Shown here: positions 2,231 to 6,611 of the stretch, piece after piece
Position numbering within the stretch: the stretch's first letter is position 1
How the letters are laid out: each line of letters begins with the position of its first letter
Source of the DNA: a virus
Reading direction: 5' to 3' (one strand)
Virus record (IMG/VR): IMGVR_UViG_3300046809_000192
Coordinates: 1 to 21,482 of that record
Length of the DNA: 21,482 bases
Translations under genes and position numbers: made by a program
The notes under the pieces: model-generated
Told to the model about the DNA's origin: nothing
Seen by the model: only the letters and a program-made list of their open reading frames with translations
Databases searched by the model: none

Positions 2231-2833
2231 ATGCTAACGACACCCGCTAGGACGTGCGAGCACTGCTCGTTGCCCCTCCCGCTGATGGCCCGTCAGCACG
2301 CTCGGTACTGCGACACGCGGTGTCGGTCGAAGGCATTCAGGGCGCAGAAGAGCGACGCGACTCCCCGTGAGCTGACGATCCGCGCCAGGTGGATCCGGCG
2401 CACCGCGACCAAGGTCCCCGTGACGATCGGCGGCATGCCGGCGTCCTCGACGGACCTGTCGACGTGGAGCATGTACGACGACGCCGTTGCCTCCACGGTC
2501 GGCGTCGGTCTGGGGTTCGTCCTCAACGGGGACGGCATCGTCTGCCTGGACCTGGACCACTGCTTGAACCCGCTCACCGGGCGTCTTGCCCCGTGGGCCG
2601 CAGCCATCGTGCGCGACGCTGGGACTACCTACGTAGAAGTCTCACCGTCCGGCGACGGACTGCACATCTGGGGCCGTGCCGACGTCCGACAGGGACGGAA
2701 ACTCAGGCGCCCCGACGGTACGGCCGTAGAGATCTACGGGACCGGCCGCTACATCGCAATGACGGGTCGCCGGCATGGCAACGCCCCGTCGTTGCTTCGC
2801 GATCTATCCAAGCTCATCGACAGGTTGGGATGA
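2231..2833 (+). CDS. Stand-alone PrimPol (bifunctional primase/polymerase) domain protein with zinc finger
   Basis: This is a 200-aa protein. Residues 9-31 hold C9-x2-C12 and C27-x3-C31 in a basic segment, which looks like a zinc ribbon. Residues about 75-180 carry the archaeo-eukaryotic primase signature: the metal-binding DLD (D107, D109) in GIVCLDLDH, SPSGDGLHIWG with H145, and VEIYGTGRYIAMTG with E167. Family members make RNA or DNA primers and extend them, usually with a C-terminal helicase. Here the protein ends soon after the polymerase core, so any helicase partner must be separate. Its last 30 nt overlap, tail to tail, the membrane gene at 2804-3103. A broken copy of its C-terminus lies at 3383-3498. 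Confidence 0.83.
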   Translation: MLTTPARTCEHCSLPLPLMARQHARYCDTRCRSKAFRAQKSDATPRELTIRARWIRRTATKVPVTIGGMPASSTDLSTWSMYDDAVASTVGVGLGFVLNGDGIVCLDLDHCLNPLTGRLAPWAAAIVRDAGTTYVEVSPSGDGLHIWGRADVRQGRKLRRPDGTAVEIYGTGRYIAMTGRRHGNAPSLLRDLSKLIDRLG

Positions 2834-3103
2834 TGGCTCCTCCTCCGGAGTGAGCTCGGTTGGCGTTGCGTGAGTTTCGCCTTCAGGCGCTTGGGGTGCC
2901 CTGCCCCCTTCAGCTGTCGCGGGCAGGTGTGCAGATGGGTGCCGAAACTCCCTGATCAGCTTCCGCCACGCGACCAATGCGTTGTGTGCGTTCTCGAAGA
3001 TCGATTCCAGTTTGAGAAAGAGCTGGTTGATGACCTTGAACGCCGCTATGAGACTTCCGCCTGCGCTGGCGAAGAAGCTCAAGACGAGTCCGACATCCTT
3101 CAT
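2804..3103 (-). CDS. Single-pass membrane protein with Pro/Glu-rich tail, 99 aa
   Basis: The chosen start is the ATG at 3103-3101 (MKDVGLVLSFF), 12 nt after GGGAGGA; the longer in-frame starts lack a ribosome-binding site. A hydrophobic segment spans residues about 4-28 (VGLVLSFFASAGGSLIAAFK), followed by an amphipathic helix (INQLFLKLESIFENAHNALVAWRKLIREF). The last 45 residues are polar and rich in Pro, Glu and Thr (PEGETHATPTELTPEEEPSS). The layout suggests an N-terminal membrane anchor, a possible oligomerising helix and a flexible acidic tail. No family is recognised. The gene converges on PrimPol, with 30 nt of overlap. A perfect 10-bp inverted repeat brackets its ribosome-binding site. 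Confidence 0.65.
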   Translation of the reverse strand: MKDVGLVLSFFASAGGSLIAAFKVINQLFLKLESIFENAHNALVAWRKLIREFRHPSAHLPATAEGGRAPQAPEGETHATPTELTPEEEPSSQPVDELG

Positions 3104-3141
3104 CCGGTCTGACGTTCCTCCCTCGGTGTGGGTCAGACCGG
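3104..3141 (-). promoter_or_regulatory. 10-bp inverted repeat enclosing the ribosome-binding site of the 99-aa gene
   Basis: CCGGTCTGAC (3104-3113) and GTCAGACCGG (3132-3141) are perfect complements. In the minus-strand mRNA the 18-nt loop presents GGGAGGA, and the 3' arm of the stem ends directly at the AUG. The hairpin would bring a Shine-Dalgarno placed 12 nt away close to the start codon. It could also be a DNA operator. It is either a translational control structure or a repressor site. Confidence 0.5.
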
Positions 3142-3207
3142 TCGCGCAGACTCGGCCTGACCACGTGCCGATAGGCGTGATCAAACCGAGAGCTGCGACT
3201 CCACCCA

Positions 3208-3240
3208 CCTGCCGTGCAGGGGTGCCGCCAGCACGGCAGG
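3208..3240. repeat. Perfect 10-bp inverted repeat
   Basis: CCTGCCGTGC (3208-3217) and GCACGGCAGG (3231-3240) are perfect complements around a 13-nt spacer. They lie in the non-coding stretch 3104-3382, about 105 nt upstream of the 99-aa gene's start. It could be a terminator, or an operator for that gene. No T-run is present on either side. Confidence 0.4.
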
Positions 3241-3303
3241 GCCTCAGTTCTCGAAGTCTCAGTTCTGGTGCGGCCTCTCCCCCTGAGCGACGCCTCGTGA
3301 GGC

Positions 3304-3327
3304 AAGAGCCGGGGTGGACGGGCTCTT
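3304..3327 (-). terminator. Hairpin downstream of the second membrane paralogue
   Basis: AAGAGCC (3304-3310) pairs with GGCTCTT (3321-3327) around 10 nt. A smaller hairpin, GCCT-CGTG-AGGC, lies at 3292-3303. Both are about 120 nt past the stop of the minus-strand gene at 3448. The distance makes the link uncertain. Confidence 0.3.
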
Positions 3328-3382
3328 AGCACTCGCCGATACATTCAAAATAGCGCTGTGAACCGGCTGCTGAGAAGACGAT

Positions 3383-3498
3383 GGGACCGGGCGGGCTGAT
3401 TGATGAGTCGCAATGACGGGGCGCTGGCACGGCAACGCCCGTCTGCGTTAGGTGATTTGCGGAACTTGATCACCGCGTTCGTCGGTGATGGGTGCTAG
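3383..3498 (+). pseudogene. Frameshifted remnant of a second PrimPol gene 3' end
   Basis: At 3408-3439 the DNA matches PrimPol 2754-2785 at 29 of 32 positions. The translated remnant reads VAMTGRWHGNA and then breaks. Adding one C at 3440 restores APSALGDLRNLITAFVGDGC and a stop at 3498, which aligns with the PrimPol end APSLLRDLSKLIDRLG. Upstream, GGGACCGGGCGG (3383-3394) encodes GTGR, matching GTGR before YIAMTG, but a short insertion with two in-frame stops (TGATGA) separates it. Nothing further 5' is recognisable. Like the intact copy, its 3' end overlaps a minus-strand membrane gene tail to tail (3448 here, 2804 there). Confidence 0.7.
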
Positions 3499-3729
3499 CT
3501 CCTGGGCAACGCGAAGGTCGCCGTAAACCGTCCAGCGGATGAGGCGGTCGACGAGTTCGAGTGTGCCCCGTTGCTTCGTCTCTCCGACGAAGGGAAACAC
3601 CACGAACGCCAGACTCGACAAGAGGATGACGATCAGTCCGGGGATCAGTCGGAGCGCAGCAAGTAGGACGTCCCCGATGATCTGGACGATGCGCCGTGAC
3701 GAGAGTGCCTCAAAGATTTGAGTCAGCAA
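3448..3729 (-). CDS. Membrane protein, about 93 aa; paralogue of the gene at 619-813 (start uncertain)
   Basis: The frame ends at TAA (3450-3448). The part with recognisable content runs from about 3700 down: QIIGDVLLAALRLIP, then LIVILLSSLAFVVFPFV, a strong membrane helix, then TKQRGTLELVDRLIRWTVYGD and a polar end. It matches the 64-aa protein at 619-813 in 17 of 50 aligned residues and adds a 25-residue C-terminal tail. The frame stays open to an ATG at 3978, but those starts lack a ribosome-binding site, overlap the neighbouring gene and would run through a hairpin at 3872-3889. I therefore give a TTG at 3729 behind GGACAGG as a provisional start. The last 51 nt overlap the PrimPol remnant. 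Confidence 0.55.
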   Translation of the reverse strand: MLTQIFEALSSRRIVQIIGDVLLAALRLIPGLIVILLSSLAFVVFPFVGETKQRGTLELVDRLIRWTVYGDLRVAQELAPITDERGDQVPQIT

Positions 3730-3889: not shown

Positions 3890-3913
3890 CGGAGGGTGCG
3901 GATACCTTCTGTG

Positions 3914-4114
3914 TCATTCGCCGCTTGGCGAGTGTTGCGAGATCTCCCGCTGATCATTGGAGCCGCGGAGTTCATCACGGACTGCGCGGACAGCCCTGAT
4001 GGCCTCGATCACCGGCTCCTTGGCGTCCACGATCTTGCGCGCGACTCCCGTAACGCCCCAGGCGGCGACGCAGACCCCAGAGGTGATTGTCGCAGCCCAT
4101 CCGTACGCATCCAT
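3914..4114 (-). CDS. Small single-pass membrane protein, 66 aa
   Basis: The start is the ATG at 4114-4112 (MDAYGWAATITSG), 12 nt after GGGAAGGG on the minus strand. Residues about 5-26 (GWAATITSGVCVAAWGVTGV) form one hydrophobic span. A charged helix follows (ARKIVDAKEPVIEAIRAVRAV), then a polar end (NDQREISQHSPSGE). The length, topology and minus-strand placement resemble the other short membrane genes here, but I see no sequence similarity to them. The frame remains open upstream to 4462 into the small terminase gene, without a usable start. It is flanked by a hairpin downstream (3872-3889) and an 8-bp inverted repeat 60 nt upstream (4175-4194). Function unknown. Confidence 0.58.
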   Translation of the reverse strand: MDAYGWAATITSGVCVAAWGVTGVARKIVDAKEPVIEAIRAVRAVRDELRGSNDQREISQHSPSGE

Positions 4115-4428
4115 TTGGCCCGTGGACCCTTCCCGTTCCGGGCAGCCGGGCCAAGCAAAAAGGCGCGCTCGGCCCGACCACATACCTGTGGTCGAAACCG
4201 AGAAACGCCCTCGACGGCCGCGTGTCCGGCTCCCGAGGGGCCGTTCGCGCGAAGTGCGGATCTCGAAGTTCGTTGGTCTCAAGAAAACTTCGTCGATGGT
4301 TTCCCTGCCGACGTCAGGCCCGTCGAGTCCTGACGCCCAAAATCTCAGTGGCTTCAATTTAGCAGGGCAGCCTTCAGCAGTCCAAACGCCCTGCATGCGG
4401 GTCAAATTGTGTCTAAGGAGGAGCGCAG
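4115..4428. other. Non-coding region between the membrane genes and the packaging operon
   Basis: I find no convincing gene in these 314 nt. The region separates a minus-strand gene from the plus-strand virion operon, so it must hold divergent control signals. It contains CGGGCC/GGCCCG (4147-4152, 4171-4176), an 8-bp repeat at 4175-4194, and CGAAGTT/AACTTCG (4264-4270, 4286-4292). An AT-rich patch (CTTCAATTTAGC, about 4353-4364) lies 65-75 nt before the small terminase start and could be a late promoter, but I cannot place -35 and -10 boxes with confidence. A cohesive-end site is often found in this position; I cannot identify one. Confidence 0.5.
4175..4194. promoter_or_regulatory. Perfect 8-bp inverted repeat, candidate operator
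   Basis: CGACCACA (4175-4182) and TGTGGTCG (4187-4194) are perfect complements around TACC. The site is 60 nt upstream of the 66-aa gene on the minus strand and 235 nt upstream of the small terminase. The short spacer and position favour a dimeric-regulator binding site over a terminator. Confidence 0.4.
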
Positions 4429-4893
4429 ATGGCCGGACGAGGTCCCGCCCCGAAGGACCCAACCAAGCGCCGTCGGCGCAACGCCGCGGACCCCGAGACG
4501 GTGATCACGCCTGACGACGAGACCCGCGGCCCTGAACTGCCGGAGGGCGTCCTAGGCGTCGACACGAAGACGGGCGAACTCTACGAGTGGCACCCCATGA
4601 CCGTGGCGTGGTGGCAGACCTGGCGCGAGTCCGCGCAGGCGTCGACGTTCACCGCTACCGACTGGTCGTTCCTCCTCGACACGGCCCTCATGCACCACTC
4701 GATGTGGGACAAGGGTCAATGGACCCTGGCTGCTGAAGTCCGGCTCAGGGCAGCCAAGTTCGGCGCCACGCCGGAGGACAGGGCCCGACTGAAGCTCAAG
4801 GTCGACGAGCCCTCCGCATCCCCTCAGAAGTCCGCACAGCGCCCCAACGGGGTGACTGACATCAACTCGCGCAGGGCGCGTCTCACAGGCTAG
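4429..4893 (+). CDS. Terminase small subunit
   Basis: This 154-aa protein begins MAGRGPAPKDPTKRRRRN, an opening I associate with small terminases of Streptomyces phages. It carries a basic N-terminus, an aromatic region (YEWHPMTVAWWQTWRESAQ), then helices (TDWSFLLDTALMHHSMWDKG; LAAEVRLRAAKFG). Family members bind the phage packaging site and hand DNA to the large subunit. The start is fixed by a strong AAGGAGGA 6 nt upstream. It ends 8 nt before the large terminase, the usual operon partner. The C-terminus is disordered and basic (SRRARLTG). The assignment rests on the opening motif plus position. Confidence 0.82.
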   Translation: MAGRGPAPKDPTKRRRRNAADPETVITPDDETRGPELPEGVLGVDTKTGELYEWHPMTVAWWQTWRESAQASTFTATDWSFLLDTALMHHSMWDKGQWTLAAEVRLRAAKFGATPEDRARLKLKVDEPSASPQKSAQRPNGVTDINSRRARLTG

Positions 4894-4901
4894 GAGACCG
4901 G

Positions 4902-6611
4902 ATGCCGCACGTCACTGTGCGCGCCCCCGGTCACGACCGCTCCCGTTCGCTCGGGTGGATGGCGGTCGCATGGATGGAGTATTTCGTCGTACACGGCCCT
5001 GGCGACGTCCAGGGCGAGCCCGTACGGCACGGTGATGAGTACACAGGTTTCGTCGTCGACTGCTACGCGCTGGACGACGACCGCGGGCGAATGCTGTACG
5101 ACTCCGCGTTCTTCTCCCGACCGAAGGGTTGTGACAAGAGCGGTCTGGGTGCGCGCCTCAGCCTCTTCGAGGCGTTCGGACCCTGCCGGTTCGACGGCTG
5201 GGCGGAGGGCGGTGAGGTCTACGAGGACCCTTGGGGTCTCGGATTCGAGTACGTCTACGAGCCTGGCGAGCCGATGGGCCGCCCGGTCCGCGTTCCCTAC
5301 CTCCGCATCATGGCGACGGAGGAAGGCCAGACCGGAAATGTGTATGACACCGTCTACTTCAACCTGACTGACGAGGCGTCACTACTGTCTTTGATTCCGG
5401 GCGTTGACGTCGGGATCACACGAATAGTTCTCCCTGACGGCGGAGAGATAATGCCGTCCACTGCGTCCGCGCTATCGAAGGATGGCGGTAAAGAGACATG
5501 GGTCTGTTTTGACGAGACGCACCTCTATTACACTCCTGAGCTTCGGCGGATGTACACGACCGTTACCCGAAACCTGCGTAAGCGGAAGAAGGCAGCGCAG
5601 ACGTGGTATTTGGAAACAACGACCATGTTTGCCCCCGGTCAAGACTCCGTAGCTGAAAAGACCTACGAAGAGGCCGAAGCAATCCGTGAGGGGAAAAAGA
5701 AGCGCGGTCGCGCTCGACTCCTCTACGACCACCGGTACGGCGTCTGCAAAGACCTCAAGAACGAGGACGAACTCCGCGCCGCACTCCTCGACGCCTACGG
5801 CGACGCTATGGAGTGGATGGACCTCGAAACGCTCGTAGACGACTTCTACGACCTGCGTAACGACTCCGCGGACGGCAAACGCTACTTCCTCAACTCCCGG
5901 ACGTCGTCCTCCGATGCGTGGATGGACTCCGACGTGTGGGAGGTCTGCCGCCGGCCGGAGGAGATAGCTGCTGGTGACCTGGTCACACTCGGGTTCGACG
6001 GCTCGATCCGCGACGACGCAACGGCGTTGTGCGCCTGCCGGGTGTCTGACGGTCACCTGCAACTTCTCGGTGTCTGGGAGAAGCCCGAAGGGCCCGAGGG
6101 CGAAGGCTGGCAAGTCGACCGTGAAGGCGTAGACAACGCCGTTGCCCGAGCGTTCGACAAATACGAGGTCTGCGGTTTCTACTGCGACCCGCCGCACTGG
6201 CAGGACTACGTAGATAAGTGGACGTCGGAGCACAGTGAAGGCCTCCAGGTAAGTGCCACGCAGGCACGCCCGTTGGAGTGGTGGACCAACAGGCCAACGG
6301 CCATGGAACACGCGTTGGACCGATTTGTCGAAGCCGTTGACGACAAGGCATTGTCGTTTGCCGGCACTGAACGGTCGGACGACGAAGCAACGTTCTCCAA
6401 ACTCGGGGCAACGCTCACCCGCCACGTGCTAAACGCGAAGCGTCGCCCGATGGGCCGCAACCACATGGGCATCGGCAAGGAGCACGCGAAGTCACCGAAG
6501 AAAATCGACGCCGCCATGTCCGCCACGCTCGCTTACGAGTGCCGCGCTGATGCAGTCGCCGCCGGAATCACGAAGCGCAAAAAGCGCTCGTCCAAGCTAC
6601 ACGCCTTTTAG
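4902..6611 (+). CDS. Terminase large subunit
   Basis: This 569-aa ATPase-nuclease drives DNA into the procapsid and cuts it. The N-terminal half holds the ATPase: a Walker A-like loop SRPKGCDKSG (72-81, K79) and Walker B TWVCFDETH (199-207, D204 and catalytic E205). The C-terminal half holds an RNase-H-like nuclease with acidic residues D366 (LGFDGS), D429 (FYCDPP) and D536 (KKIDAAMS). The length is normal for the family. The Walker A loop departs from the classic GxxxxGK[ST] pattern, as is usual in phage terminases. Codons between about 5330 and 5700 are noticeably AT-richer than the rest, which could mark an exchanged segment around Walker B. The start ATG follows AGGAG and the small terminase by 8 nt. 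Confidence 0.93.
   Translation: MPHVTVRAPGHDRSRSLGWMAVAWMEYFVVHGPGDVQGEPVRHGDEYTGFVVDCYALDDDRGRMLYDSAFFSRPKGCDKSGLGARLSLFEAFGPCRFDGWAEGGEVYEDPWGLGFEYVYEPGEPMGRPVRVPYLRIMATEEGQTGNVYDTVYFNLTDEASLLSLIPGVDVGITRIVLPDGGEIMPSTASALSKDGGKETWVCFDETHLYYTPELRRMYTTVTRNLRKRKKAAQTWYLETTTMFAPGQDSVAEKTYEEAEAIREGKKKRGRARLLYDHRYGVCKDLKNEDELRAALLDAYGDAMEWMDLETLVDDFYDLRNDSADGKRYFLNSRTSSSDAWMDSDVWEVCRRPEEIAAGDLVTLGFDGSIRDDATALCACRVSDGHLQLLGVWEKPEGPEGEGWQVDREGVDNAVARAFDKYEVCGFYCDPPHWQDYVDKWTSEHSEGLQVSATQARPLEWWTNRPTAMEHALDRFVEAVDDKALSFAGTERSDDEATFSKLGATLTRHVLNAKRRPMGRNHMGIGKEHAKSPKKIDAAMSATLAYECRADAVAAGITKRKKRSSKLHAF

Follow-up and report, generated by a model that had tools for sequence, protein, structure and literature searches.

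A dead PrimPol 3′-end fragment in a variable island of small reverse-strand membrane genes between PrimPol and the terminase of a Streptomyces-phage contig

Results

The analyzed stretch of DNA (hereafter, the window) is an entire IMG/VR virus record (IMGVR_UViG_3300046809_000192, 21,482 bases) and represents a tailed-phage genome fragment, in which a tRNA gene is followed by the small reverse genes S, D, and E, an HNH endonuclease gene, a conserved small gene (1727), the PrimPol gene, a variable region, the terminase small (terS) and large (terL) subunit genes, and head and tail genes. Among named phages, Streptomyces phage Samy (OR263580) is the nearest, with a PrimPol and a TerL that are 70% and 89% identical to those of the window. 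A probable cos sequence, CGTAAAGGTGC, lies on the plus strand at 2023–2033, about 200 nt before PrimPol, and is one base off the Samy cos, published as CGTTAAGGTGC (PMC11302927). It is the single match to the cos-like motif CGTnnAGGTGC in the whole window, and downstream of it TGGGCCTCGC..TGTACGGGTCTGGGG resembles the left end (the first bases) of the Samy record. In 28 of 62 loci, the window counted, the same motif precedes the PrimPol match by 208 to 238 nt, and in one further locus by 347 nt. Since a cos-like sequence precedes PrimPol both in the window and in many of these loci, the cohesive end is probably followed by PrimPol as the first gene. Furthermore, the record crosses the cos site and is therefore of prophage or concatemer type. 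The contig belongs to a cos-type Streptomyces phage or prophage, and both the cos–PrimPol–terS–terL order and the shared proteins place it among the Samy-like phages. Its terS gene (4429–4893, plus strand) matches Pfam Terminase_7 with E = 1e-38. At 110–178, a second tRNA-like gene, detected by Rfam (35 bits) and not called by ARAGORN, adjoins tRNA-Pro.

The intact PrimPol gene (2231–2833, plus strand) encodes a small protein of 200 amino acids with a zinc-finger-like N-terminus and an AEP domain. It matches phrog_8643 (E = 1e-64) and is homologous to characterized AEP primases, as indicated by the solved primase chains 6a9w/7rr4 (E about 4e-19); the Pfam Prim-Pol match (E = 3e-4) scores slightly below the cut-off (21.8 vs. 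22.8). The AEP motifs hDhD, sxH, and hE were assigned by inspection to D107/D109, H145, and E167. In a search of defense families, the sole match was a sub-threshold resemblance of the intact protein to CRISPR-PrimPol. A literature search for a primase adjoining the terminase in actinophages retrieved no relevant paper.

Downstream of the intact gene, the window carries a broken second copy of the PrimPol 3′ end (3379–3498, plus strand). Its best preserved part is a direct repeat of 33 nt (2754–2786 and 3408–3440) with 30 of 33 bases identical (91%), which includes the 29 of 32 bases at 3408–3439 that a preliminary description of this DNA had pointed out. The local alignment score of the repeat was 52. 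Among 500 dinucleotide-shuffled versions of the spacer none scored above 32, and for the remainder of the window 60 shuffles gave at most 35. When the window was searched with an nhmmer profile made from the PrimPol 3′ ends of 35 relatives, the intact gene was found and then the segment 3379–3466 (E = 7.2e-6), with no further match below E = 0.25. The homology extends about 29 nt upstream of the stretch noticed previously (GGGACCGG.CG) and is interrupted there by 9 extra bases carrying two in-frame TGA codons. The claim that restoring a single C lets the remnant read through to its own stop also held: compared with the intact gene, the remnant lacks one C, and past this gap the frame reads APSALGDLRNLITAFVGDGC up to the stop at 3496–3498. 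The remnant begins at about residue 170, past all AEP motifs, and includes none of them. Because a base has been lost, two stops lie in the 9-base insertion, and the homology starts after all the catalytic motifs, 3379–3498 is a dead PrimPol pseudogene fragment. Alignment of the two PrimPol ends, which had been suggested at both levels, gave a significant result for DNA, whereas the remnant fragments alone gave a weak protein signal (E about 1.7) because the frame is broken. We therefore did not retain a protein-level proof for so short and frame-broken a stretch, and the evidence is that of the DNA.

Past the conserved block, the tail of the remnant (ALGDLRNLITAF) and that of the intact gene differ at most positions and also in length. 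A GGGGCGC stretch of the remnant agrees with the closest relative of the window, contig L066, and not with the intact copy; a search for a donor with the motif in the form seen in the remnant gave none. The second PrimPol copy of the window stands alone among 101 spacers downstream of PrimPol homologs, none of the others having one at E < 1. A candidate third PrimPol end behind gene C (3894–3945, similar to the L066 tail ADVSEVIRRLT) was rejected, as its score was reached by 69 of 500 shuffles and, for the portion outside gene C, by 421 of 500; the resemblance is therefore explained by the conservation of C itself. The remnant most likely derives from a PrimPol 3′ end and marks a recombination joint.

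Five reverse-strand genes of the window, A, B, C, D, and S, encode short proteins with one hydrophobic segment each and with no convincing family match, and PADLOC and NCBIfam searches also gave no match for A–D or S. Gene A (2804–3103, 99 amino acids) is convergent with intact PrimPol and overlaps it by 30 nt, while the C-terminal extension of gene B (3448–3729, 93 amino acids, TTG start) overlaps the remnant, sharing 51 nt with this PrimPol end. Both PrimPol ends thus meet a minus-strand gene tail to tail, in agreement with the preliminary description. No homolog of A was found in the viral contigs or in 393 Streptomyces genomes. Gene A weakly resembles the C type, and its leader (3104–3361) is similar to C-type leaders (CTCGGCCTGACCACGTGCC..AAACCGAGA), with local alignments to the C leaders of L012, L092, and L026 that score above shuffles at a modest level of similarity. 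Gene B is a paralog of gene D (619–813, 64 amino acids, 28% identity), which is located on the same contig away from PrimPol, and it is 40% identical to a reverse gene in L012, the only viral contig in which its family was found; 27 of the 393 Streptomyces genomes contain the B/D family. Homologs of gene C (3914–4114, 66 amino acids) are placed tail to tail with PrimPol in relatives, and those of gene S (264–422, 52 amino acids) are found near tRNA-Pro and also, in the case of L024 and L098, immediately downstream of PrimPol. A palindrome-like sequence, GACCACATACCTGTGGTC, is present in the leader of C (4178–4200), with a looser version in the leader of A (3158–3185), and is a possible repressor operator. 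No sigma-70-like promoter was found for these genes, and the two terminator-like sites seen do not exceed chance expectation. The GC content of the island that holds A, B, and C is 0.62 vs. 0.654, and the GC3 of these three genes is 0.66 to 0.73 vs. 0.76 to 0.87 in phage core genes.

The interval between PrimPol and terS was then compared across 64 loci whose PrimPol identity is 60% or more. It measures 44 to 947 nt in these relatives vs. 1,596 nt in the window, and it is filled with alternative contents in different relatives. About half of the loci, 35 of 64 when counted by pattern, have forward genes that are separated from the PrimPol stop by a conserved spacer. The element concerned, CTCCCGACATGGGACGGC..GCCGT..CCGGGAGG (e.g., L007:2476–2530, L009:5591–5645, and L010:5159–5205), has the ribosome-binding site of the following gene at its end and is absent from the window; it could be a hairpin hiding that site or a packaging element. 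More distant relatives have CCCGACACGGG twice. A reverse gene lies tail to tail with PrimPol in several other relatives, being of the C type in L066, L026, L012, and L092, of the S type in L024 and L098, and of another type in L002. A convergent small membrane gene directly behind PrimPol is thus a recurrent arrangement, in support of the preliminary description. The search for relatives in which PrimPol faces a homolog of A or B was less rewarding: an intact PrimPol facing B was seen in no phage, and one facing A in the window alone.

The comparison with L066 was the most informative, and it covers the DNA from within PrimPol rightward, as this contig begins inside that gene. The PrimPol cores of the window and L066 are 91% identical up to codon ≈189, after which the identity drops to background, and the last ≈12 codons of the window gene (2797–2833, plus strand), which overlap gene A, are a replaced tail unlike that of L066. 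In L066, a single convergent C gene takes the place of A, the scar, B, and C, and its identity to the body of the window's C is 65%, close to the shuffled level of 50–62%. To the right, the start of C and the leader up to terS (4091–4428) are conserved (leader, 86% identity) and form the boundary of the variable island, and terS itself is 97% identical. The extra genes A and B and the remnant of the window lie within a bounded island.

If the primase and a membrane gene travelled as a unit, PrimPol cores should cluster by partner, and such clustering was not seen. C-type partners are scattered on the PrimPol tree with 3 changes, at least 2 of them forced by well-supported branches, in a tree whose bootstrap is not fully settled and in which L066 is too short to be placed. 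The TerL tree, moreover, is incongruent with that of PrimPol. In 24 host-genome loci (about 1.5 kb on each side), no PrimPol was found beside a B/D gene. A lone reversed B/D gene is located between portal and scaffold in L184 and between the head morphogenesis and major head protein genes in L188, and those of L189 and L191 are directly upstream of terL. Prophage L098 has the S-type gene twice (3152–3259 and 5640–5747), near tRNA-Pro and directly behind PrimPol. In decayed prophages of Streptomyces genomes (L161, 1269–1541; L172, 1312–1482; L171; and L158), a PrimPol fragment faces a C-like gene that is still open in L172, L161, and L158 and broken by a stop in L171. Because of the scattered C-type partners, the conflict between the two trees, the B/D genes without PrimPol in other phage types, and the different partner of the L066 core, we conclude that what moves is the small membrane gene, accompanied at most by the final ≈12 PrimPol codons that overlap it, and that the primase does not travel with it.

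Discussion

The reading that we consider probable is that the region is a moron hotspot, in which membrane genes are swapped by recombination between the PrimPol end block and the terS leader, and that the scar is a trace of this process. Small reverse-strand membrane genes would be gained or exchanged between PrimPol and the terminase, with the left joint tending to fall at the last conserved PrimPol block (GRYIAMTGRRHGNAPS) and the right joint at the conserved leader before terS. As to the order of events, we infer an L066-like ancestor with PrimPol, one convergent gene, leader, and terS, in which A, together with a new PrimPol tail, and B, together with the PrimPol 3′ end of another phage, may have been acquired by unequal joining, so that this second end would remain as a dead scar. 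What we observed directly is the dead fragment, the break at codon ≈189, the conservation of both flanks, and the changing gene content of relatives. With a single such scar known, it is chiefly the comparison of the window with L066 that speaks for a general joining role of the PrimPol end block.

The preliminary description had ascribed the scar to recombination in which a PrimPol–A pair displaced a PrimPol–B pair, the primase and its membrane gene being a swappable unit. The first part of this claim stands, since the scar does come from a PrimPol 3′ end and likely marks a joint, while the arrival of a PrimPol together with its new partner is not supported, the core being 91% identical to that of L066, which has a different partner, and neither is the unit itself. 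In its favor, two PrimPol ends in the window each face a reverse membrane gene, and the PrimPol tails of the C-type group are alike (VIRRLT/VVRRLT) where they overlap C. Nevertheless, the window and L066 already provide one pair with a shared core and different partners, C-type partners sit on scattered cores, and B/D and S genes occur away from PrimPol, which makes the swappable unit an unlikely explanation. Local duplication of the phage's own PrimPol 3′ end, with B inserted or already present downstream, would account for two ends that are 30/33 identical and both of the GNAPS type. However, the two tails past the block mostly differ and are of unequal length in a gene whose core is conserved at 91% with L066, and the GGGGCGC stretch matches L066 and not the intact copy, so we hold duplication to be just as unlikely. 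It is rather improbable, too, that the PrimPol end block next to cos serves as a recurrent entry site for cassettes, each bringing a tail and a membrane gene and leaving dead ends that stack up. Insertion of a cassette by a dedicated recombinase, comparable to integrases that act at the 3′ ends of tRNAs or genes, with a replacement tail each time, would fit the 33-nt direct repeat that brackets a 0.65-kb segment and the restored gene end with its new tail, but the segment has no recombinase gene, the repeat pair is the only one among 101 spacers, and the conservation of the repeat is explained by its coding for protein; we regard it as very unlikely. Chance similarity in place of a PrimPol remnant, to which the weak protein-level matches of the separate fragments might point, is refuted at the DNA level (E = 7e-6, with all shuffles at least 17 points below the score).

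The hotspot reading agrees with what is known of phage morons, which are likewise small opposite-strand genes in the structural/packaging module, patchy in relatives, and different in base composition. The genes of the window lie on the opposite strand and are differentially present among close relatives. Given their lone orientation, patchy presence, and persistence, A, B, C, D, and S are most likely putative prophage-expressed morons, perhaps superinfection-exclusion or host-benefit proteins. Samy-like temperate phages share the order cos–PrimPol–small genes–terS–terL and a near-identical cos, but in Samy two forward genes occupy the place taken in the window by A, the scar, B, and C. Similarly, Streptomyces phage VWB has the same PrimPol family just before terS/terL, but with 57% PrimPol identity, a forward gene in the gap, and no scar found. 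We read the window as a case of ordinary phage mosaicism at a moron hotspot with an unusually legible scar. It makes an actinophage mosaic joint visible at near base level and identifies the small membrane gene, not the primase, as the mobile part. Two of the gene families (B/D and C) recur in Streptomyces genomes, with C-type genes that have in several instances stayed open next to decayed prophage genes, and the cos–PrimPol–terminase interval is a place to seek prophage-expressed genes in Samy-like Streptomyces phages.
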